Source: Oscillospiraceae bacterium (GTDB lineage Bacteria > Bacillota > Clostridia > Oscillospirales > CAG-272). From it: DNA of 64,000 nt. Shown in pieces: positions 10,998 to 48,924 of this stretch (the stretch's first letter is position 1; each line of letters begins with the position of its first letter). The translations under genes and the position numbers were made by a program. The notes beneath the pieces are model-generated. The model ran no database searches and was not told the origin of the DNA. It worked only from the letters and a program-made list of their open reading frames with translations. Location: contig SVTK01000006.1 of NCBI GenBank assembly GCA_015063805.1, positions 1-64,000 of the forward strand, written 5' to 3'.

Positions 10998-11013
10998 GTA
11001 TACATTAAATGCA

Positions 11014-11288
11014 GTGAGCAGAAACAAGTAGACCTGGAAAAACCCTGGAGAGAGTTGCCGGTTGGTGCGAGGCAATGGGGGAGGCCTTGTCGAATTCCTT
11101 CTGTTAGCAGTGCGCTGAACGAAAGAAATTTCCAGTAGGATGCAACGGGTGTTCCCGTCACAGAACTAAGGTATGAAAGTACCTGATAAGGCCGCGGTCG
11201 TGAGATTGCGGCGAATTGAGGTGGTACCACGGGATTGTTGAATTCTCGTCCTCTGTATTCTTTGTGGGAATGCGGGGGCGTTTTTATT
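11014..11288 (+). promoter_or_regulatory. T-box leader 1 (candidate specifier TTC, Phe, at 11095-11097)
   Basis: Stem I features AGTA, AGAGAG, GGTGCGA; loop-E-like GAC-flanked AGTA opposite GTC-GAA-TTC; antiterminator gaggTGGTaccacggg; terminator before tttttatttt. Confidence 0.9.
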
Positions 11289-18811: not shown

Positions 18812-19747
18812 TTATGCTTCCCGCTCACGGAGGGGCAGGGCAAGGATCTCTTCTTTGCGGCTCAGCAGATTGCCGGCATCCAGGGCCGCTTCCAGGGTGT
18901 TGGCCCCCAGGCGGTCGATGGCGGCGCCGAGACGCTCACCGCGGTAGCCGTTTTCCTTGTACCACAGCATGACGCTCTCCACCACATCGGGAATTTCCTC
19001 CGGGGTAAAGACGCGGTTCAGGCGGGTGCCCATGCGCTGGGTCTTGCCCCATGTGCCGCCTACGAAGACGCGGCAGACCGAGCCGGCTTCCTTCGGTACG
19101 GCACCGAAGGGACATTTGCCCACGCAGACACCGCAGTGGGTGCATTTGTCGGCATCAATGACGGCACGGCCGCTTGTGAGGGTGACGGCGCGGGAGGGGC
19201 AGGCAGCCTGGACAGCGCAGGTCTTGCAGCCGCGGCAGAGGGCGGCGTCAAAGGAGAAGGCACGGGCGCCCTCGATGCCCACGTCGTTGAGGCTGGGCTT
19301 CATGCAGCTGTTGGGACAGCCGCCGACACCAATTTTGAATTTATGGGGTAGCTTGACATCCCGCATCCCGATATAGAAGCGGTCGAACAGGGTTTTGGCC
19401 ATGGCGCGGGTGTCAATATTGCCGTAGACACAGGTGGTACCCTTGCAGGCGGTGATGGGGCGGACCCTGGCGCCGGTCCCGCCGAAGTAGAGGCCGCGCT
19501 CTGCCATGAAGGCCTCGGCGGCGGGGATCTGCTCGAAGGGAATGCCGGGAATCTCGGCAGCCAGGCGGGCGGTGAAGATCACCTCTCCGCTGCCGAACGT
19601 TTCGGCGCACTCGGCAATGGTATGAAGCTGATCGGGGGTGAACAGGCCGGCGACGGTGACGACTCTGCCCGAGAAGCACTCGGTACCCCGATTGCGGAGA
19701 AATCCTCTTCCCTTAACTGTGGCGATCTGTTCTGCACAAAGACTCAT
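18812..19747 (-). CDS. Sulfite/nitrite reductase-like protein with 4Fe-4S ferredoxin domain
   Basis: ACKGTTCVYGNIDT...GVGGCPNSC siroheme/4Fe-4S motif; CRGCKTCAVQAACP and CTHCGVCVGKCPFGA ferredoxin motifs. Confidence 0.85.
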   Translation of the reverse strand: MSLCAEQIATVKGRGFLRNRGTECFSGRVVTVAGLFTPDQLHTIAECAETFGSGEVIFTARLAAEIPGIPFEQIPAAEAFMAERGLYFGGTGARVRPITACKGTTCVYGNIDTRAMAKTLFDRFYIGMRDVKLPHKFKIGVGGCPNSCMKPSLNDVGIEGARAFSFDAALCRGCKTCAVQAACPSRAVTLTSGRAVIDADKCTHCGVCVGKCPFGAVPKEAGSVCRVFVGGTWGKTQRMGTRLNRVFTPEEIPDVVESVMLWYKENGYRGERLGAAIDRLGANTLEAALDAGNLLSRKEEILALPLREREA

Positions 19748-19763
19748 GTTTACCTCCGTTTGG

Positions 19764-19792
19764 TTGACATGGAAATGGATGTATGTTATAAT
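19764..19792 (+). promoter_or_regulatory. Promoter TTGACA-17-TATAAT
   Basis: Perfect consensus boxes in the divergent intergenic region. Confidence 0.75.
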
Positions 19793-19849
19793 ATTTTAAC
19801 ATTTTATGCCTGCGTTGTCAATGATTTCGCGGGATTTGGAGGTGGAGCC

Positions 19850-20806
19850 GTGGGGCAGAATCGAATGTGCCGTTTTGGCGTGGTGATGATCTTATGGGTG
19901 CTTGTCCTGTTCCTTTTGGCTTCCTGCGGCGGTGAGCCGGCCGGGCCCGGGGAGGGGTGGACAGAGTTCACCGATGCCCTGGGGCGGCAGGTTGTCCTTG
20001 CCGAGCGGCCAACGCGGGTGGCGGCGCTTCTGGGCAGCTTTGCCGACGTGTGGCTGCTGGCGGGGGGCGAGATCTGCGCCGCACCGGAGGACGCTGCCGC
20101 CGATTTCGGCCTTGATCTTTCCGGTGCCGTGCATCTTGGAGGAGCCCATTCCCCCAATCTTGAGGCGCTGCTGTCCGCTGAGCCCGAGTTTGTGTTGGCC
20201 AGCGCTTCCACCGCCGCTCATGTGGAGATGCGGTCGGTGCTCGAGGGGATGGGGATCCCCGTGGCCTATTTTGATGTGGACTGCTTTGGGGACTACCTGG
20301 ATATGCTGAAGATCTGCACCGAAATCACGGGCAGGGACGATTTGTACGAGCAGAACGGCCTGGCCCTTCAGGCGCAGATCGATGCGGTGCGCGACGCAGT
20401 GGAGGCAGGCCTTCCCGGAGAGGAAAAACGAACGGTGCTTCTGCTTCGCGCTTCTTCCGGCTTTGTGAAGGCGAAGGGAAGCGAGGGCACGATCCTGGGG
20501 GAGATGCTGGCAGACCTTGGCTGCATCAACATTGCCGACCGCGATGGGACGCTGCTGGAGTCACTGAGTGTAGAGAGTATTATACGTCGGAATCCCTACC
20601 GCATTTTTGTGGTGACCATGGGAAGCGACACCGCCCAGGCCATGGAAAACCTCTCCCGGATGATGGATGAGAACCCCGCGTGGGGACAGCTGGATGCGGT
20701 GAAAAACGGCCGGCTTCATGTAATGGATCGGCGGCTGTTCAATATCAAACCGAATGGGAAATGGGCGGAGGCTTATGAAACAATCAAAGATATCTTGCTG
20801 GGATAA
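19850..20806 (+). CDS. ABC transporter substrate-binding lipoprotein (iron/siderophore/cobalamin type)
   Basis: Lipobox FLLASCGG; FTDALGRQVVLAERPTRVAALLGSFADVWLLAGG; probable GTG start after ggaggtggagcc. Confidence 0.82.
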   Translation: MGQNRMCRFGVVMILWVLVLFLLASCGGEPAGPGEGWTEFTDALGRQVVLAERPTRVAALLGSFADVWLLAGGEICAAPEDAAADFGLDLSGAVHLGGAHSPNLEALLSAEPEFVLASASTAAHVEMRSVLEGMGIPVAYFDVDCFGDYLDMLKICTEITGRDDLYEQNGLALQAQIDAVRDAVEAGLPGEEKRTVLLLRASSGFVKAKGSEGTILGEMLADLGCINIADRDGTLLESLSVESIIRRNPYRIFVVTMGSDTAQAMENLSRMMDENPAWGQLDAVKNGRLHVMDRRLFNIKPNGKWAEAYETIKDILLG

Positions 20807-21794
20807 GGGGCGGATCGGTCGGCTGTATTTGATCGGCGGGCTTGGGTTTACCGCCGCGCTGATCCTGGGTGTTTTGCTGGGAAGCACCCCCCTCTCCCCG
20901 GGCGAGGTGATCGGTGCCTTTCGGGAGGGATTTGACTCCTCGGCGGGGGCGCGGATCTTCGCCTATGTCCGCCTGCCCCGCACCCTTGCCGCCCTGATCT
21001 GCGGCGGTGCGCTGGCGGCGGCGGGGGCGGTGATCCAGAATGTGCTGGCCAATCCGCTGGCCTCCCCGGGGATCATTGGCGTAAATGCGGGGGCGGGGCT
21101 GGCGGTGACGGTATGCACGGCCATGGGCCTTTTCGGCGGATGGCAGATGTCCCTCTTTGCCTTTGTCGGTGCGTTTGCGGCGGTGATGGCGGTGAGCCTG
21201 GGGGCGAAACGCTGGGGCGGCACCCGGGGGACGCTGATTTTGATGGGAGTTGCCCTCAACAGCCTTTTCGGGGCCATGTCGGACACGGTGGTTACCCTGA
21301 TGCCCGAGGTAGGAGTCATGCGCAATGATTTTCGCGTGGGGGAATTCTCCGCCGTGACCTACGGTCGGCTGATTCCTGCTGCGGCGATGATCATCCTTGC
21401 CCTGGCGGCTCTGCTGACCTTGCACAATGGGCTGGATGTGCTGACCCTGGGGGAGGAAACTGCCGCGGGGCTGGGGATGAACACCGGCCTGATGCGGACG
21501 GTGTTTCTGCTTCTTGCGGCTCTGCTGGCGGGCTGTGCTGTCAGCCTGGCGGGGCTGTTGTCCTTTGTGGGGCTGATGGTTCCCCACGCGGTGCGTCGGC
21601 TGTCGGGAGGCGGTGGACTTCATTTGCTGGGGCTCAGCGCCCTGTTCGGCGGGGCCTTCGTTTGCCTGTGCGATACGGCGGCGCGGACGGCCTTCTCCCC
21701 CTATGAGATTCCGGTGGGGATCATCATGGCCTTCCTTGGCGCGCCCTTCTTTTTGTGGATTCTGTTCCGCCGAAAGGGGGAGTCGGAGATATGA
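20775..21794 (+). CDS. FecCD-family ABC transporter permease
   Basis: VRLPRTLAALICGGALAAAGAVIQNVLANPLASPGIIGVNAGAGLAV. Confidence 0.9.
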   Translation: MKQSKISCWDKGRIGRLYLIGGLGFTAALILGVLLGSTPLSPGEVIGAFREGFDSSAGARIFAYVRLPRTLAALICGGALAAAGAVIQNVLANPLASPGIIGVNAGAGLAVTVCTAMGLFGGWQMSLFAFVGAFAAVMAVSLGAKRWGGTRGTLILMGVALNSLFGAMSDTVVTLMPEVGVMRNDFRVGEFSAVTYGRLIPAAAMIILALAALLTLHNGLDVLTLGEETAAGLGMNTGLMRTVFLLLAALLAGCAVSLAGLLSFVGLMVPHAVRRLSGGGGLHLLGLSALFGGAFVCLCDTAARTAFSPYEIPVGIIMAFLGAPFFLWILFRRKGESEI

Positions 21795-22546
21795 TCGAGA
21801 CCAAAAATCTGTCGGCGGGCTACGGCGGGACCCCTGTGATCCGTGGAATTTCGGCCGCCTTTGCTCCCGGCGAGGTGGTGGGGGTCATCGGCCCCAACGG
21901 CGCGGGGAAGAGCACTCTGCTCAAAGCTGTCCGCGGGATGATTCCGGCCCTTGGCGGTGCGGTTTGCCTGGACGGGGAGAGTATTGCCGGCATGAGCCGG
22001 GGCGAGCTGGCGCGGCGGGCGGCATATCTGCCCCAGACCCGGCGCTGTCCCGACATGACGGTGGAGCAGACGGTGCTTCACGGCCGCTTTCCACATTTGC
22101 GCTATCCCCATACCTATCGGGATACCGATCGGGATATGGCTCGCGCGGCCATGGAGAAGATGGATATCCTTGCCCTGGCCGGGCGGCCCATGTCCACCCT
22201 CTCGGGGGGGATGCGGCAGAAGGTATACATTGCCATGGTGCTTGCCCAGGATACGCCGTACATTTTGTTCGACGAGCCTACGGTTCACCTGGATATTACC
22301 TATCAGCTTGCCCTGATGCGGATGATGCGGACCCTCGCCCGAGAGGGGCGGGGGATCATTGCGGTGATGCACGATTTGCCCATGGCCATGACCTTCTCGG
22401 ATCGGATCTTGGTGATGCGTGAGGGGGAGGCGGTGTGCATGGGTCGGCCGGAGGAGATCTGTCGGGGTGATGTGATTCCCCGGGTGTTTGGGGTAACGGT
22501 GGACCGTTTCCCCGACGGAAAAAACTACCACTGCCGCATGGAATAA
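21791..22546 (+). CDS. ABC transporter ATP-binding protein (FecE-like)
   Basis: GPNGAGKST Walker A; LSGGMRQ signature; ILFDEPTVHLD. Confidence 0.9.
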   Translation: MIETKNLSAGYGGTPVIRGISAAFAPGEVVGVIGPNGAGKSTLLKAVRGMIPALGGAVCLDGESIAGMSRGELARRAAYLPQTRRCPDMTVEQTVLHGRFPHLRYPHTYRDTDRDMARAAMEKMDILALAGRPMSTLSGGMRQKVYIAMVLAQDTPYILFDEPTVHLDITYQLALMRMMRTLAREGRGIIAVMHDLPMAMTFSDRILVMREGEAVCMGRPEEICRGDVIPRVFGVTVDRFPDGKNYHCRME

Positions 22547-22559
22547 GGAGAAGATTATT

Positions 22560-23135
22560 TTGAAACAACTGGGAAAACTGTTTTTGACGATGCTCAAAAT
22601 CGGGCTGTTTACCTTTGGCGGGGGATATGCCATGCTGGCCCTGCTGGAGAATGAATTTGTGGCAAAGAAAAAATGGGTCGACGGGGAGGAATTCCTGGAC
22701 ATGGTGGCCATTGCCGAGTCCACCCCCGGTCCCATTGCCATCAATGCGGCTACTTATATCGGCTATCGGCTGGCGGGATTTTGGGGCTCCCTTGCGGCCA
22801 CGGTGGGGGTGTGCATTCCGTCTTTTGTGATTATTTTCGTAATATCTCTGTTTTTTGACGCCTTTTTGGCGCTGGCACCGGTGGCCAATGCTTTCCGGGG
22901 GATCCAGGTCTGTGTCATCTACCTGATTCTCTCGGCGGGGCTGAAGATGTTCCGCGGCATCAAAAAGACCCCCTTCAACCTGGCCGTTTTCTTCGGCACG
23001 GTGGGGGTCATGGTGGCGGTGTCGGTGTTTGCCGTAGGGTTCTCTGCTGTTTGGTGCGTCCTGCTGTGCGGTGCCCTTGGGGTGATGATCTATCTGATTG
23101 GCCTACTGCGTCGGAGAAAGGGGGAGGGGAAGTGA
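22560..23135 (+). CDS. Chromate transporter family protein (half 1)
   Basis: FTFGGGYAMLALLENEFVAKKKWVDGEEFLDMVAIAESTPGPIAINAATYIGYR. Confidence 0.9.
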   Translation: MKQLGKLFLTMLKIGLFTFGGGYAMLALLENEFVAKKKWVDGEEFLDMVAIAESTPGPIAINAATYIGYRLAGFWGSLAATVGVCIPSFVIIFVISLFFDAFLALAPVANAFRGIQVCVIYLILSAGLKMFRGIKKTPFNLAVFFGTVGVMVAVSVFAVGFSAVWCVLLCGALGVMIYLIGLLRRRKGEGK

Positions 23136-23701
23136 TCTATCTTCGCCTTTTTCTCACTTTCCTGCAGATTGGCGCTGTTTCCTTCGGCGGGGGGTATGCC
23201 ATGATTTCCCTCATTCGGGAGAAGGTGCTGATGTATGATTGGATCACCGAGTCTGAGCTGTTGAACATGATTGCCATTGCTGAATCCACCCCCGGTCCCA
23301 TTGCGGTGAATATGGCCACCTTTGTGGGGGCCAAGCAGGGGGGCGTTCTCGGCTCACTGCTGGCTACGCTTGGGGTGGTGCTGCCCTCCTTTGTGATCAT
23401 TCTGCTGATCACGGCGGCGATCCGGGGGCTTCTCCGTTACCGGGGCGTGCAGGCCTTTTTGGGGGGCGTTCGTCCCTGTGCCGTCGGTTTGATTTTCACC
23501 GCCGCGGTAACCCTGGCGCTGAGCGTTCTGCTGGGCTGGCAGGGCGTGGGGACAGTTCCTGCTCCCGATGTGCGGGGATTGGTGATCCTCGCTGTCCTTG
23601 TGCTGGCGGGCATTGCGGGAAAGAAGCTCCTGCGCAAAAAAATATCACCCATATTGATGATCCTCCTGTCCGCGGGGCTGGGGATGCTTCTTTATGGGTA
23701 A
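23132..23701 (+). CDS. Chromate transporter family protein (half 2)
   Basis: VSFGGGYAMISLIREKVLMYDWITESELLNMIAIAESTPGPIAVNMATFVG; GTG start overlapping upstream stop. Confidence 0.9.
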   Translation: MIYLRLFLTFLQIGAVSFGGGYAMISLIREKVLMYDWITESELLNMIAIAESTPGPIAVNMATFVGAKQGGVLGSLLATLGVVLPSFVIILLITAAIRGLLRYRGVQAFLGGVRPCAVGLIFTAAVTLALSVLLGWQGVGTVPAPDVRGLVILAVLVLAGIAGKKLLRKKISPILMILLSAGLGMLLYG

Positions 23702-23750: not shown

Positions 23751-25196
23751 TTATGCGGGGGAGATGCGGTAATCTGCGCCCATGCGGTATACCGCGGCTT
23801 CTTTAGAGGAGAGCATGGCGGGCAGTCCCGTGAGGTGGGATACCAGGATCCAGCGGATACCGCAGGCCCCGAAGTGCCGCAGAATGGGGCAAAGCCCCTC
23901 GGCCCCTTCGGTGTAGGCGGTGCTTTGGAAGGTTTCGTTGAGGAAAACCATGGCGCCCTCCTCCAGGCCCTCCACCATGTCGGCCAGTTCCCGCACCTCC
24001 TGCTCGAAACGGCCGGCGGCATTGTCCTCGCGCTCCTCACGGTGGGAGAACTGCAGGGCCAGGGCGGTGCAAGGGTTGAGGTTGGCGCGGGTACAGGGGA
24101 GGGGGAGTCCCGCCTGGGCCAGAAGCTGGAGTGTGGCCAACGACCGCAGGAAAACAGTCTTGCCGCTGCCGTTCTCGCCCAATACCAGCAGTCCCCCCTC
24201 GGCTGGGAGGCTGACGGTGTGGGGGATCACCCGGTCGCGGTTGGAAAATTCGGTCAGGAGCAAGAGGTCGTATAGCCCTTCGGCGGTGGTAGGGGTTTGG
24301 GGTGTAATCTCGGGAAAGCAGAGGGGGACACCCTTTTCCCGGAGTGCCGCGGCATAGGTAAGGGCGGCGGTGTAAAAGCGCAGTTCATGGGTGAGGGGAA
24401 CGAGGGTTTGCAGAAGCTCCCGGGTGACGGAGGAAAAGTGTGCCGCAAGAGCCGCAAAAGCCGAGGCGATGAGGCTGTCATAGTCTTCTCTGTCCTGTAT
24501 TTCCACGGGAACACCGGGTCGGGTCGGCGTTTTGGTACGAAGGGGGAAGCCCTTCTTTTTTTGTGTCTCGGCGGGAAGATGGCGGAGGTCGGTGAGGCTG
24601 TATTCGGCCATGCGGCCGTCGGGGGCCAGGGTGAAGCGGTAGGCCAGGAGATCTCTTTCGCTGAATTCGCTGTACTTGCGGCAGAGATGCAGAAGGCGGG
24701 AATGGGCGGGATTTTCTGCCATGGCGCGGCAGATGTCCCGCAGGTTGACCAAGCCTTCGGCGGCAAGGGGATATTGATCCAGCAGGTCGGCCAGATTGGT
24801 CACCGAGAGCAGCGTGCGCTGACAGCAGATCGCCTGGGTTTGGAGGAGATTTTTTGCGCTGGTGACGGTGGCGGTGCGGGAGGCACCGATCCCCCGCGCC
24901 TCCCGCTCGGCATCCTTTTGCGCGGTCTGCAGGGCGGAAAAGTGGGCAATGCAGGCACTCAGCGCTTCCGCCAGCGCAGGGGTACGGAGAAACTCGGCCA
25001 GGATCTGCTGGCGGTAGTTGATCTCGGCCGGATCGGCGGTGATTTGGGTGATCACCGCGAAAAGCACTTTGCGGCTCGCCTCATCGGGGCAGAGTCGGGC
25101 GAGGCTCCGGTCCAGGGAGAGATGATAGAGAAGATCGGGCTTGACCGGGGTGGCGGGGGAGGGCTTCTCTACGGGGTGAAGCAGACTAATGTGCAC
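23751..25196 (-). CDS. MutS-family ATPase (domain V-type; second of pair)
   Basis: GGLLVLGENGSGKTVFLRSLATLQLLAQAG Walker A; NETFQSTAYTEG; GTG start with AGGAGG RBS. Confidence 0.82.
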   Translation of the reverse strand: MHISLLHPVEKPSPATPVKPDLLYHLSLDRSLARLCPDEASRKVLFAVITQITADPAEINYRQQILAEFLRTPALAEALSACIAHFSALQTAQKDAEREARGIGASRTATVTSAKNLLQTQAICCQRTLLSVTNLADLLDQYPLAAEGLVNLRDICRAMAENPAHSRLLHLCRKYSEFSERDLLAYRFTLAPDGRMAEYSLTDLRHLPAETQKKKGFPLRTKTPTRPGVPVEIQDREDYDSLIASAFAALAAHFSSVTRELLQTLVPLTHELRFYTAALTYAAALREKGVPLCFPEITPQTPTTAEGLYDLLLLTEFSNRDRVIPHTVSLPAEGGLLVLGENGSGKTVFLRSLATLQLLAQAGLPLPCTRANLNPCTALALQFSHREEREDNAAGRFEQEVRELADMVEGLEEGAMVFLNETFQSTAYTEGAEGLCPILRHFGACGIRWILVSHLTGLPAMLSSKEAAVYRMGADYRISPA

Positions 25197-26628
25197 GGTT
25201 TGTCCTCCTTTTCTCCAGGGAATCGGCATCCAGCCCATGACGGCGGAGGATGTGGTTGGCGTGAGAGGTGGCTGATCCGCGAAAACGGACAATGCGGAAG
25301 GTACGGTGCTCTCCTTCGGTTACCCCGGCGGTGAGAATGGGGTAAGCGGAGTCGGTGACCCGGTGGAAGTGGGTGACAAAAAGGCAGAAATGTCCCGCTG
25401 CAGTCAGATCGGCGGCAAGGCGCTCAAGGTGAGCAAAACCGATCTCTCCGTCGGCTCCGCTGAAGGTTTCATTGAAGAGCAGGAAGGCGGTCATCCCGCT
25501 GCATTCCGCCAGCATGGCATCGACACGGCGGACCTCGTCCTCCAGCCGACCGGTGTGGGTGAAGCGTTCATCGGCGGGGAAGTGGGCATCCACGCGGGGG
25601 AAGGGATAGATACGGGCGGAGCGGGCGAAGATGGGGCAGCCCGCGCCGAAGAGGAGGAGGTTGATGCCCAGCGCCCGGAGATAGGTGGTCTTTCCCCCGC
25701 CGTTGGCACCGATGAGGAAGAAAAAGGGATCTTTTTCGGTGAAGCGGGCATCATTGGGGATGATGGAGCGATCTGCGGTGAGGAGGGAGATGTCGATGAG
25801 CGCCTCGGCGCAGTATTCGGGCGTGGGGGCGATGGCGGGGAGAGTATGAGGAATGCCCTTCGCTTCTGCCCGTGCGGTGAGAGCGTGGATCTCAAGGAAG
25901 AATTTCAGGGCGGGGATATGGCCGGCGGGGGCGAGAAAATCGATGCCTGTCTGCTGTGCGAGGATTTCCTCAATCTCGGCGGCCTCCGTGGGATAGAGGG
26001 AGAGAATGGCGTTCGAGAGAGAGGGGGGAAGCGGGACTGCGGCGGAACGGACGGCAGGGGGAGTCAGCCCAAGGGCGGTGATGCAGGCGGCAAGGTCTTC
26101 CTCCTCGCTTATCGCTTCGCGGTCGGGATAGAGGCGGTACCGATCCCCCACCGCCAGGAGGCCCCGGCGCAGGGGGAGAAGGAGCGCCTCCAGGCGGCGC
26201 AGGTCTTCGCGGAGGGTGCTCAGGGCTTGCTCGGTTTCGGGATGGGCAAAATAGGCCGATGTTTCGGCGAAAAGTTCGCCCCACGCTCCGGTGCGGGAGA
26301 GGTGATCACAGGCCTGCAGGTAGGCGGCCATCCGCCCGGCATGGAGACAGTACTGCGTGAGGGCGGGGGCAGAGGTGTTCAGCCGAAGGCAGGCGGATTC
26401 CAGTGTTTCCAGGGCGGCGAGACATTCGGTCATGGCGCAGCAGACGGATGGCTCCTCCATGCGGGCAAAGATCTGCTGTCGGCGGCGGATCTCGCCTTCG
26501 CCGCAGGGGCGGCAGAGCAGGGAGAGGGCGTTTTCGCTCAAAAGTCCCTCCATACGCAGGTCCGAGAGAAGTCGGCGGGGGAGGGGAGGATGAGGAGTGG
26601 GCGTGAGGAGCGGGGGAAGTGTCATCAT
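25186..26628 (-). CDS. MutS-family ATPase (domain V-type; first of pair)
   Basis: FFFLIGANGGGKTTYLRALGINLLLFGAGCPIFA; LLFNETFSGADGEIG; ATGA overlap with upstream gene. Confidence 0.82.
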   Translation of the reverse strand: MMTLPPLLTPTPHPPLPRRLLSDLRMEGLLSENALSLLCRPCGEGEIRRRQQIFARMEEPSVCCAMTECLAALETLESACLRLNTSAPALTQYCLHAGRMAAYLQACDHLSRTGAWGELFAETSAYFAHPETEQALSTLREDLRRLEALLLPLRRGLLAVGDRYRLYPDREAISEEEDLAACITALGLTPPAVRSAAVPLPPSLSNAILSLYPTEAAEIEEILAQQTGIDFLAPAGHIPALKFFLEIHALTARAEAKGIPHTLPAIAPTPEYCAEALIDISLLTADRSIIPNDARFTEKDPFFFLIGANGGGKTTYLRALGINLLLFGAGCPIFARSARIYPFPRVDAHFPADERFTHTGRLEDEVRRVDAMLAECSGMTAFLLFNETFSGADGEIGFAHLERLAADLTAAGHFCLFVTHFHRVTDSAYPILTAGVTEGEHRTFRIVRFRGSATSHANHILRRHGLDADSLEKRRTNRAH

Positions 26629-27182
26629 AAGGCGGCCTCCAATCGGCCCAACAGACGGGACAGGGATTGGATCTCCATGCCGCAGACTATATCTCCCGCG
26701 CCCAGGATTTCCTCGGTTCCGTTGGATGCGCGGCGGCGGATATCCACGGGGATGGGGTGGATGAGCAGGATGTGATGGGGCGTTTTCCGTGCCCATTCGT
26801 CCCGGTCGTGCAGGTGGAATCGATAGGCGGGGAGGGGACGCGGTTTGCCGTCAAAGTGGAAGTTGGCCAGGCCCATGAGGGTGAGAAAACTGCGGAAACA
26901 GTAGGTGTCGTGTGCGGTGAAGATCAGGGTGCGGCGGCGGTGGGGGACGCCGAAGAACTTGAGAGCAAAGATCTCCCCCGGCGTTTCGATGTAGCAGTCA
27001 CATCCTTCTCCCCGGCGGTGGCCGAAGAACCAAAGCCGGTGGGCGGGATGTAGAAGGAAGCCCCTCTCCCGGCAGAAGCGGGTGAGCCTGCGGGCGCAGA
27101 GCAGCCGTTTAATCAAACAGCGAAGTGTGGGAAAGAGGAGGATGGCAAGAAGGATGAGCAGCAGAAATAGGCCGAAGGTCAT
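26625..27182 (-). CDS. Hypothetical protein with one N-terminal TM helix, operonic with MutS-like pair
   Basis: MTFGLFLLLILLAILLFPTLRCLIKR...; translationally coupled (ATGA) to 26628. Confidence 0.7.
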   Translation of the reverse strand: MTFGLFLLLILLAILLFPTLRCLIKRLLCARRLTRFCRERGFLLHPAHRLWFFGHRRGEGCDCYIETPGEIFALKFFGVPHRRRTLIFTAHDTYCFRSFLTLMGLANFHFDGKPRPLPAYRFHLHDRDEWARKTPHHILLIHPIPVDIRRRASNGTEEILGAGDIVCGMEIQSLSRLLGRLEAAL

Positions 27183-27406
27183 GGGGTGCTCCTTTCGTTT
27201 GGGTGTTGGGTTCATTATAGCATTCCCCAAAATCGCTGTCAAGGGAAGCAAACCGGAGGGATACCCATTCTCCGAATCTGCGATAATTGGGGTGGGCGAA
27301 ATATCCAAAGACAAGGGGACATTTTTGTGAAAAATGTGAATTGCGAAATTTCGCCTCCTGCGGTATAATGAAACCAACGATAAACCCACAGGAGGTTGAC
27401 AGCATA

Positions 27407-36809: not shown

Positions 36810-38162
36810 TTGGGAAGATTATTCGGAACAGACGGTGTGCGCGGCATTGCCAACACTGAGCTGACCTGCGAGCGTGCCATGGCCATCGGCCGTGCGGCAG
36901 CAATGGTCTTCGCAGACGGATGCAGACGGCGTCCGATTGTGGCAGTGGGCAGTGATACCCGTATCTCCTCCGATATGCTGGGCTGTGCCGTGATGGCGGG
37001 CCTTTGCTCGGTGGGTGCGGATGTCATTGACCTGGGCGTGATCCCCACCCCTGCTGTGGCTTATCTGGTGGGGAAGTACAAGGCGGATGCGGGAATCATG
37101 ATCTCGGCATCCCACAACCCTGCGGCGTACAACGGAATCAAGATCTTCAGCGGCGACGGCTACAAGCTGCCCGATGCCCTGGAGGAGCAGATTGAGACGC
37201 TGGTGCTGGAGCGCGATGCGGAATGGCCGACGCCTGTGGACAGCGGGGTGGGTAAGATCACCCGTGCTACAAACGCGGCAAGCGATTACGCGGTGCACGT
37301 GCGCAGCTCGGTGCTGTACTCGCTGGACGGCCTGCACGTGGCCATTGACTGTGCCAACGGCGCATCCAGTGTGACGGCAAAGCAGATTTTTGAGGGCCTG
37401 GGCGCTGAGGTGGACATCCTCTTCGACAGCCCCAACGGAACCAACATCAATGACGGCTGCGGCTCCACCCACATGGATAAGCTGGCAGACTATGTCAGAG
37501 AACACGGCCTGGATGCGGGAATTGCCTTTGACGGTGATGCCGACCGCTGCCTGGCGGTGGACGAGAAGGGCAACTTCATCGACGGTGACCAGATCATGGC
37601 CATCTGTGCGGCCGACCTCAACGAGCGCGGGCGACTCTCCCGCAAGACGGTGGTGGGCACGGTGATGACCAACCTGGGCTTCCAGCGCTTCTGTGCCGAC
37701 AACGGGATGCGTTTCCTGGCAACCCGCGTAGGCGACCGCTTCGTGCTGGAGGAAATGATTCTGGAGGATGCCACCTTCGGCGGCGAGCAGTCGGGACACA
37801 TTATCTTCCGCGACTTTGCTACCACCGGTGACGGTCAGCTCACGGCGGCACAGCTGCTTTCCCTGATGCGCCGCTGCGGGAAACCGCTCTCTGAACTGGC
37901 ATCGATCATGACCAAATATCCTCAGGTGATGCTCAACCTTACCGTGACCCCCGAAGGCAAGCTGCACTTCCATACCGACGCCCAGGTGCGCGAAGCCATC
38001 GAGCGAGCCAAGTCTGCTCTGGGTGAGCGCGGACGTGTTGTGGTTCGTCCCTCGGGAACTGAACCGTATCTCCGTGTCATGGTAGAGGGTGAGGACGAGG
38101 ACGAGATCAGTCGCATCGCAAACGAAGTCGCAGAGGTCATTCTTGCGCGGCTCGGAAGTTAA
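36810..38162 (+). CDS. glmM: Phosphoglucosamine mutase
   Basis: GRLFGTDGVRGIAN; ISASHNPAAYNGIKIFSGDGYKL; FDGDADRC; probable TTG start. Confidence 0.92.
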   Translation: MGRLFGTDGVRGIANTELTCERAMAIGRAAAMVFADGCRRRPIVAVGSDTRISSDMLGCAVMAGLCSVGADVIDLGVIPTPAVAYLVGKYKADAGIMISASHNPAAYNGIKIFSGDGYKLPDALEEQIETLVLERDAEWPTPVDSGVGKITRATNAASDYAVHVRSSVLYSLDGLHVAIDCANGASSVTAKQIFEGLGAEVDILFDSPNGTNINDGCGSTHMDKLADYVREHGLDAGIAFDGDADRCLAVDEKGNFIDGDQIMAICAADLNERGRLSRKTVVGTVMTNLGFQRFCADNGMRFLATRVGDRFVLEEMILEDATFGGEQSGHIIFRDFATTGDGQLTAAQLLSLMRRCGKPLSELASIMTKYPQVMLNLTVTPEGKLHFHTDAQVREAIERAKSALGERGRVVVRPSGTEPYLRVMVEGEDEDEISRIANEVAEVILARLGS

Positions 38163-38165
38163 TTC

Positions 38166-38335
38166 AGCGCCAGAACTGCATCGCAGGGTGCAGTTGACGA
38201 GGTGGGAGATGAATCGAAATTTCGGCGGATATCTCCCCGGCAGAACCACCTGCCGAAGGCTGTCACAAATATACGGGTGACCGTAAAACAAAGGACAGTG
38301 CAAAGGGGACCTTCCCGCATGACGGGAAGCAAATT
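38166..38335 (+). ncRNA. glmS ribozyme (glucosamine-6-phosphate-activated)
   Basis: AGCGCCAGAACTGCATCGCAGG..GTGCAGTTGACGAGG..ATCGAAATTTCGGCGGATATCTCCCCGG..GAAGGCTGTCACAA..ACAGTGCAAAGGGGACCTTCCCG matches the conserved core. Confidence 0.94.
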
Positions 38336-42946: not shown

Positions 42947-43007
42947 GTGGGGGAAGACAGTCAAAAAGGGGCAAATATCCGCTTGGCTGTGCCAAGCGGA
43001 TGTTTGC

Positions 43008-44153
43008 TTAAAGCGAGTTCGCTTTTGCGAGGATGACCCGGAAACGCTTGCTTCCCCGCAGAGGATCGAAAACGCTCCATTGGAGAGAGTTGGTGATCTG
43101 TTTTGCCGGGGGAACCGATGTGAGGTGGGCTGAGAAATCGATGCCATAAAAATACGGCAGCTGACTGGTTTTGTGATGATGTTTCTCGGCGGAACGCTGT
43201 CCAAAGCAGACTAGTTTTTCCAGCCAATCCATGGCCTCTTCGGTGCGGCCCAGCTTCATGCAGATCGAGGCGCACCGATCATAGGACAGATTGAGGGATA
43301 GGTTGGGGTGATATGGTTCATCGGCGTTTTTGCTCTGGAGGATCCTTTCGAACAGATCAATGCGGAGACGGTAACAGGTATAGGCTTCTTCCCACTTGCC
43401 TTGCTTCTCATATAAATATCCCAGCGCGGGTAAAATGGGCTCAATCTGGATCAGTTTGGTGTACAGAGCGTTGATGTACTGCACTTTTGCATCCTCGGTG
43501 CGGCCCATGGCCTCATAGACTACGGCAAGCTGAAATCCGCTTTGATCAACCACCTGTTTGGCATGTTCTTCAGCTTTGGCCAGGTCTCCTGCCATCCGAT
43601 AAATGCTGACCAATCTGCGATGTGCCAGGTCGAGATATTCCATATCGCTGCAATGGTGCAAAATTACATTGGCTTGACGGATGCCCTCCTGCATCATGGC
43701 GTGCATTTCATCGCCTCTGCCCGTTTCTTCTCCCTGTATTGTTTCCCGGTGATTTGCCCAAAGCAGACTCACGATGCTCCCCAGTGAGCAAGCGAGCAGC
43801 TTGTAGTTGTTGGGATATACAGCCAGTATTTTTTGCACATCTGCACAGCATGCCCGGCAATGGGCGAGGTCGCTTATTCCTTCGGGCTTGCTGCACCGTT
43901 TTTGATGGTATTCCCGAAGGAAGGCCTCTGTTTGTTCGTCGTCTGCATCCCCTGCAATGCCAAACAGAACGTCGGTGGATACGCCGAACACATGGGCCAG
44001 GGGGACGATCTGTGCGATATCCGGAAGGCTGGCTTCGGTTTCCCAGCGGCTGACGGCCTGGCAGGTGACATTTAGCTGTTCCGCCAGCTCTTCCTGGGTG
44101 AGGTTTCGCTCTTTGCGCAGCCCGCGAATGATTTTTCCCATAGTTTCGTGCAT
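43008..44153 (-). CDS. XRE-family HTH regulator with TPR-like C-terminus
   Basis: MGKIIRGLRKERNLTQEELAEQLNVTCQAVSRWETEASLPDIAQIVPLAHVFGVSTDVLFG. Confidence 0.87.
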   Translation of the reverse strand: MHETMGKIIRGLRKERNLTQEELAEQLNVTCQAVSRWETEASLPDIAQIVPLAHVFGVSTDVLFGIAGDADDEQTEAFLREYHQKRCSKPEGISDLAHCRACCADVQKILAVYPNNYKLLACSLGSIVSLLWANHRETIQGEETGRGDEMHAMMQEGIRQANVILHHCSDMEYLDLAHRRLVSIYRMAGDLAKAEEHAKQVVDQSGFQLAVVYEAMGRTEDAKVQYINALYTKLIQIEPILPALGYLYEKQGKWEEAYTCYRLRIDLFERILQSKNADEPYHPNLSLNLSYDRCASICMKLGRTEEAMDWLEKLVCFGQRSAEKHHHKTSQLPYFYGIDFSAHLTSVPPAKQITNSLQWSVFDPLRGSKRFRVILAKANSL

Positions 44154-44274
44154 GATATTTCTCCTTTGGACAATTTGTTGATTTGCTTCCGCCGAATACA
44201 GTATAACAGAGAATTTCCCTTATGTACAGCGACGCGAACAGGAATCGGACTCAACGGAGACTTGAATTTTGGCC

Positions 44275-44316
44275 AAAAAAGAGGAAGAGACGGGAACCGT
44301 CTCTTCCTCTTTTTTA
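44275..44316 (-). terminator. Terminator downstream of rplA
   Basis: aaaaaagaggaagagacgg-gaa-ccgtctcttcctctttttt symmetrical hairpin. Confidence 0.85.
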
Positions 44317-44326
44317 CCGGTCAAAA

Positions 44327-45022
44327 TTAGCCAAGCTTAGCCTGGTTGATCTTGATGCCGGGGCCCATGGTAGATGCAAGGACACAGGACTTAATGTACT
44401 GACCCTTTGCAGCTGCGGGACGAGCCTTGATGATTGCGCCCATCAGGGTCTCAAAGTTCTCTTGGAGCTTCTCAGCACCGAAGGAAGCCTTGCCGATGGG
44501 GCAGTGGATGATGTTGGTCTTGTCCAGACGGTACTCGATCTTACCGGCCTTAGCCTCGGTAACAGCGCGAGCAACATCGGGGGTAACGGTGCCTGCCTTG
44601 GGGTTAGGCATCAGGCCCTTAGGACCGAGAACCTTACCCAGACGGCCGATCACGCCCATCATGTCGGGGCTTGCGATAACCACGTCGAACTCGAACCAGT
44701 TCTCCTGCTGAATCTTGGCAACCATGTCCTCAGCACCAACGTAGTCGGCACCTGCAGCCTTGGCAGCGTCAGCCTTGTCGCCCTTCGCGAAAACGAGGGT
44801 GCGGACGGTCTTACCGGTACCGTTCGGCAGAACTACGGCACCGCGGACCTGCTGGTCAGCGTGGCGGGAGTCAACGCCCAGACGGACGTGCAGCTCGATG
44901 GTCTCATCGAACTTTGCCTTAGAGGTCTGGCAAACCAGAGCCAGTGCCTCTGCGGGATCATACATCTTGTTCTTTTCAAGCAGCTTTACGCTGTCGGAAT
45001 ACTTCTTGCCCATTTTAGCCAT
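44327..45022 (-). CDS. rplA: 50S ribosomal protein L1
   Basis: [30 protein letters not shown]...[15 protein letters not shown]. Confidence 0.97.
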
Positions 45023-48788: not shown

Positions 48789-48805
48789 ATACCCACGACT
48801 GAACA

Positions 48806-48893
48806 AACGGGAGCTTGTATACAGGCTGAGAGGAAGGTGTGACCTTCGACCGAGAACCTGATTTGGATAATGCCAACGTAGGGATGCCTGATA
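48806..48893 (+). promoter_or_regulatory. TPP riboswitch (THI element)
   Basis: CAGGCTGAGAGGAAGGTGTGACCTTCGACCGAGAACCTGATTTGGATAATGCCAACGTAGGGA conserved core. Confidence 0.95.
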
Positions 48894-48924
48894 CGAGGAT
48901 ATTGGGAGGAACAAAAGATTTTTT

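Follow-up and report, generated by a model that had tools for sequence, protein, structure and literature searches.

Eukaryotic MSH proteins form obligate non-identical dimers, and MSH2-MSH3/MSH6 are MutS-fold ATPases, as are the two proteins described here. MutS1 possesses a mismatch-recognition domain (domain I) and a connector domain (domain II). MutS2 has a core made of domains III-V without I and II, forms a homodimer and carries a C-terminal KOW/Smr part, a DE Walker B motif and an STF signature. It binds junctions and splits collided ribosomes, to which the KOW/Smr part recruits it (PMC12292046). KamC, which is named in NCBIfam as an enzyme-reactivating MutS-like ATPase (lysine 5,6-aminomutase reactivase), is a short stand-alone protein of ~540 aa with DE in Walker B and the LSTF/LSxFG motif kept, and the gene next to its own encodes a different kind of P-loop protein instead of a second MutS. 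We found little on kamB/kamC or on short MutS subfamilies in the openly available literature. Lastly, a mutS gene behind the crcB motif was noted by Weinberg et al. (2010; PMC2864571), which is also the only place in the fluoride literature where we found mutS discussed, besides one mention of DNA repair proteins.

Here we analyse a stretch of 64,000 nucleotides (the window) from a Clostridia genome of 2.1 Mb in 23 contigs, the nearest named relative of which is a metagenome-assembled genome (MAG) from roe-deer colon (L089, same locus as G262). On the minus strand of the window, a promoter is followed by the genes for a membrane protein (T31) and two short MutS-like ATPases (MutS-A and MutS-B, hereafter A and B), all three genes overlapping. 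What can be said most safely is that A and B probably make up a MutS-fold ATPase of two unlike subunits that works outside mismatch repair and, in the window's lineage, is linked to the membrane.

Layout of the operon and domains of the two ATPases

The features of the locus are the following, in the order of transcription:

27214..27242, minus strand: sigma-70-type promoter, TTGACA-17-TATAAT (12/12 consensus, 17-nt spacer, TG before the -10)
26625..27182, minus strand: T31, 185 aa, ATG start, ribosome-binding site GGAG
27123..27179, minus strand: hydrophobic N-terminal helix of T31, about residues 2-20, followed by 8 Lys/Arg
26958..26999, minus strand: D62...K75 pair of T31, each residue kept in 34/35 sequences
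25186..26628, minus strand: MutS-A, 480 aa, start overlapping the T31 stop (ATGA)
25687..25710, minus strand: Walker A of MutS-A, residues 307-314, GANGGGKT, invariant in 68 sequences
25468..25473, minus strand: Walker B N386-E387 of MutS-A, in LLFNETF, invariant in 68 sequences and aligning with DE of MSH2
25198..25266, minus strand: C-terminal helix-turn-helix of MutS-A, residues 455-477, absent from MutS-B
23751..25196, minus strand: MutS-B, 481 aa, GTG start, ribosome-binding site GGAGG, 11-base overlap with the end of MutS-A
24156..24179, minus strand: Walker A of MutS-B, residues 340-347, GENGSGKT
23934..23939, minus strand: Walker B N420-E421 of MutS-B, in VFLNETF, invariant in 65 sequences and aligning with DE of MutS2

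The positions, lengths and motifs in an earlier reading of the letters alone (the sequence-only reading) were thus borne out, as was the gene coupling that it described, with overlapping starts, an ATGA junction and an upstream gene with one transmembrane helix. The promoter sits just beyond the 23751-27182 range, T31 starting within 32 nt of it; two promoter-like sites occur in the region, compared with 0.7 in shuffled sequences. In G262 an ATG occupies the position of the MutS-B GTG, which supports this start codon. Two chromate-transporter genes (window 22560-23701) run convergently toward the end of MutS-B, preceded by an iron-siderophore-type ABC transporter (window 19622-22546), and Rfam matches in the window comprise a T-box leader (11005-11256), a glmS ribozyme (38155-38309) and a TPP riboswitch (48799-48902).

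MutS_V was the sole Pfam model above cut-off (30.2 bits) in MutS-A (33 bits) and MutS-B (38 bits), and domains I, II and IV were matched in neither; both proteins end after the ATPase/helix-turn-helix region, with no KOW or Smr part. In a cross-species comparison, A and B are ~29% identical over ~190-210 residues. In A and B alike, conservation covers Walker A, the glutamate of Walker B and the H-loop. Their signature reads GR(F/L)xxE in place of STF, and asparagine replaces the Walker B aspartate in 68/68 A and 65/65 B sequences, at a position where the aligned residue of MSH2 and MutS2 is Asp. The AlphaFold model of MutS-A (pLDDT 90.5, pTM 0.85) begins with domain III-like helices, and Foldseek searches with this model found MSH2, MutS and MutS2 (best E 7e-17) along with the solved structure of the E. 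coli MutS D693N mutant (3k0s), D693 being, we presume, the same position as the Walker B Asn of the pair. The model also matches the fold of MutS2 in structure 7qv3 (collided disomes), and the MutS-A profile covers MutS2 residues 76-459 of that structure (E 1e-16) with almost no change in length, so that MutS-A resembles the MutS2 core without the KOW/Smr part. Since A keeps a helix-turn-helix that B lacks, the two proteins are not interchangeable. PADLOC models matched A and B over the P-loop only (20-70 residues, best E 4e-4). Net charge, considered as a clue to DNA binding, failed to discriminate between groups.

Relation to known MutS families and to fluoride-cluster pairs

The best NCBIfam match of both proteins was KamC (NF052383), at 42-49 bits against a cut-off of 300, with the MutS1 models scoring 19-34 bits (cut-offs 641.7 and 480) and the MutS2 model (TIGR01069) 26-37 bits (cut-off 400). 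In trees built by quick searches, with SH-aLRT support only, the pairs from gut bacteria, the fluoride-cluster pairs described below and a group of solitary genes were united (support 100), apart from MutS1, MutS2 and KamC. By profile and by tree, then, neither protein falls into a characterised MutS subfamily. Identity with KamB-KamC is ruled out by the score, by DE versus NE in Walker B, by the separate clade of KamC (support 100) and by the type of its neighbour. MutS2 is akin to A and B in the length and fold of its core and occupies a branch of its own in the tree; 139 of the 147 genomes of the order, the sister species included, encode full MutS2, which rules out the pair as its replacement. 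Unlike MutS1, A and B are without domains I and II; this, their short length and scores far below the MutS1 cut-offs lend support to the non-mismatch role proposed by the sequence-only reading.

A phylum-wide search revealed tandem pairs far outside the order, most of them of a sister type. Such sister pairs occur in Bacillota chromosomes, where several adjoin genes for a cation:proton antiporter and UspA, and also on plasmids of Klebsiella, Burkholderia, Rhodococcus and Alicyclobacillus, in clusters that variously include crcB, enolase, a CLC channel, a DHHA2 protein, UspA or DUF190, the gene set differing from cluster to cluster. A fluoride riboswitch lies at most about 420 nt upstream of A in six loci and elsewhere in the cluster in four others, and was not found in the cluster of L255. 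Like the window pair, the fluoride pairs consist of two adjacent ~500-aa genes in A-B order, here overlapping by 4 bp, with the Walker B Asn in both proteins and no mismatch domains. Unlike it, they have a GK(L/F) instead of a GR(L/F) signature, a riboswitch and fluoride genes and no T31, and their B keeps a longer tail. Fluoride A joins gut A in the tree (support 85), with no resolved grouping on the B side of the same tree. A-B order, gene overlap, NE in both Walker B motifs and a common clade, the marks of a family of paired short MutS proteins, were all found. Because the window pair shares this family with the 'mutS' of fluoride clusters, A and B probably have no part in mismatch repair. 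Searches for a fluoride riboswitch in the window (at the Rfam gathering threshold), in 15 loci from the order and in ten genomes, most of them with T31-A-B, found none, and fluoride control of the window operon is ruled out by the absence of this riboswitch from the window and those ten genomes.

A solitary ATPase of the same family (L035 6991-8607; contig C19 of G000, about 42990-44606) has DE in Walker B and keeps the helix-turn-helix. Its gene lies between one for a PHP-domain protein and a group encoding an AsnC-type regulator, an aminotransferase and DNA polymerase I.

Pairing, membrane partner and rate of change

Among 80 named loci from GTDB genomes, which are best matches and biased toward the window type, B lies directly downstream of A in 76; the exceptions are L137, L148 and L168, without a recognisable downstream B, and L127, where the contig ends inside B. 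(Duplicates between these named loci and those with G handles include L036/L105, L038/L104 and L222/L089.) A search of the 147 genomes of the order with a single protein showed that several families have tandem pairs, some genomes having two, and in the tree the first and the second genes of the pairs each make up a clade of their own. The A and B distances are strongly correlated (Mantel r 0.94 for 61 loci; maximum of 999 permutations 0.13), as are those of T31 with A (0.91; permutation maximum 0.44) and with B (0.92) for 27 loci; shared descent alone yields such correlations, and they therefore speak for long co-inheritance, not for contact. The A-B pair is ancient. Fixed order and pairing, separate clades, correlated divergence and loss of the helix-turn-helix in B only make the obligate heterodimer that the sequence-only reading had suggested a well-supported prediction from comparative sequence data. 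That reading would have been refuted had the triplet been confined to close strains or had both proteins belonged to a known characterised MutS subfamily; the triplet is conserved beyond close strains, and neither protein falls into such a subfamily.

The surroundings of the pairs vary. Seven gut-type pairs without T31 lie directly after rpoD, which is itself often preceded by dnaG, as if in a macromolecular-synthesis operon, and at five loci an XRE-type regulator with a long C-terminal part is encoded directly upstream of A-B.

T31 is encoded directly upstream of A in 36 of the 80 loci (six more being cut at a contig edge), and A mostly starts at the T31 stop; all named genomes with T31-A-B are uncultured MAGs. 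Since about half of the gut pairs are without T31, a tether is not essential to the family. On the A tree, T31 is concentrated in one clade (support 97), having been lost or gained several times. A second lineage (G096, G053 and G034) has a different transmembrane protein upstream of A, of similar architecture and with a D-x12-K pattern. The overlap of T31 with A across genera and this second, divergent partner argue for the membrane tether suggested earlier. Of the 71 genera of the family, 41 have relatives of T31, and some of these relatives have no A-B in their vicinity. A wider set of T31-like membrane proteins with a conserved 'NPVP' motif (seven loci) is stand-alone or in tandem, has one to several transmembrane helices and often lacks the D...K pair.

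The AlphaFold model of T31 (pLDDT 87.9) comprises a long N-terminal helix and a beta-rich domain, which the positive-inside rule places in the cytoplasm. T31 had no match in Pfam, NCBIfam or PADLOC, and Foldseek returned nothing significant, the top of the list being mostly Holliday-junction resolvases at E 0.13 and worse. All 35 T31 sequences lack the E/Q of (D/E)xK two residues before K75 (A/S/C in 34, K in one), which rules out T31 as an active PD-(D/E)xK nuclease and leaves at most a degenerate nuclease fold.

Three species of the genus share the locus in synteny. Relative to G262, nine flanking genes are 93-99.5% identical, A and B 82-83% and T31 91%; in A and B, dN amounts to ~7 times the median of the flanks and in T31 to ~3.5 times, with dS 2-3 times, and dN/dS is 0.15-0.25 in the operon compared with 0.02-0.13 in the flanks. 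At the same locus in G117, identity is 69-89% for the flanks and 40-50% for the three operon proteins A, B and T31, whereas the solitary MutS-like protein encoded on contig C19 shows 87% identity between the window genome and G117. T31-A-B is thus under purifying selection yet evolving several times faster than its flanks. A phage-borne element is ruled out, there being no relative on viral contigs and one weak match in phage records.

Proposed function and alternatives

As a best explanation, which as a whole we put forward tentatively and at somewhat short of even chances, T31, MutS-A and MutS-B would share a single promoter and assemble into a complex in which T31 tethers an obligate A-B heterodimer to the membrane's inner face and the heterodimer remodels a client in a stress response. 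A and B may build composite ATP sites across their interface. Replacement of the Mg-coordinating Asp by Asn would make hydrolysis slow, and the dimer may therefore act as a long-lived, ATP-locked clamp or switch and not as a fast motor. Its client would be a protein or protein-nucleic-acid complex that is bound and remodelled by A-B upon presentation by T31, the putative membrane adaptor. The parts of this proposal differ in strength: a heterodimeric, membrane-linked, non-repair ATPase is quite likely, and the role in remodelling proteins under stress, drawn by analogy, is a looser suggestion than the explanation as a whole. An ATP-driven clamp or switch for stress remodelling is favoured by the ribosome splitting of MutS2, the reactivase name of KamC and the fluoride setting of the sister pair, the first two being distant analogies since MutS2 and KamC both fall on the opposite side of the tree. 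While heterodimer, tether and non-mismatch role found support, the sequence-only reading's further guesses of recombination control, DNA defence or uptake gained no positive evidence, and the family contexts (fluoride regulons, ECF sigma) point to stress instead.

We rank four other readings, from the most to the least probable, in the order given here. It is unlikely, though more plausible than the other three, that A-B embraces branched DNA at the membrane in the manner of MutS2 or MSH4-MSH5, in recombination control or DNA uptake, with T31 as a degenerate docking domain like that of a resolvase or restriction enzyme. Like the junction-binding MutS2 (PMC12292046), both proteins consist of a MutS core that lacks domains I and II, and T31 keeps D and K at nuclease-like spacing and retrieves mostly Holliday-junction resolvases; these matches are not significant, however, the E/Q is missing throughout, recombination or competence genes do not recur nearby and the sister pair, in its fluoride setting, is not placed among DNA functions. 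A role in transcription, in which T31 would be an unusual membrane anti-sigma factor that together with A-B holds and releases a long ECF-type sigma factor (~550 aa, sigma regions 2 and 4 and a C-terminal extension), we regard as rather improbable. The gene for such a sigma factor directly adjoins T31 or B at eight loci and T31 without A-B at three, but it is absent from most T31-A-B loci, including the window, and the closest long ECF elsewhere in the window genome is 29% identical. The T31 model is beta-rich, moreover, unlike known helical anti-sigma domains.

An anti-phage or anti-plasmid defence complex would account for the patchy presence within the family and for divergence several times above that of flanking genes. 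Against this stand the weak, P-loop-only PADLOC matches, the purifying selection (dN/dS as above), the synteny in three species, the near absence from viral and phage records and the want of a recurrent nuclease, toxin or defence neighbour, and we consider defence very unlikely. Least probable of all is a MutS2-like ribosome-rescue factor: the near-unchanged length over MutS2 residues 76-459 of the collided-disome structure is consistent with it, but the pair is without the KOW/Smr part that brings MutS2 to collided ribosomes (PMC12292046), and full MutS2 is already there in nearly all genomes of the order.

Returning to the stress-remodelling switch, its broadest form is possible but doubtful, and we hold it less firmly than the explanation for the window itself: A and B would belong to a distinct family of obligate MutS heterodimers with a natural Walker B Asp-to-Asn exchange, acting as non-repair, stress-linked protein-remodelling switches, with the fluoride 'mutS' as one branch and a membrane-anchored, fast-evolving T31 complex in gut Clostridia, sometimes with its own ECF sigma, as another. 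The 'mutS' behind fluoride riboswitches appears to be a branch of the pair family and not a mismatch-repair MutS, so that the puzzle of a repair gene in a fluoride regulon becomes testable through the target of the A-B ATPase. The invariant Walker B Asn predicts an unusual and measurable ATPase cycle. If true, the family would be a widespread bacterial counterpart of the eukaryotic MSH heterodimers, encoded by a conserved pair of genes that is joined here by one for a membrane partner.
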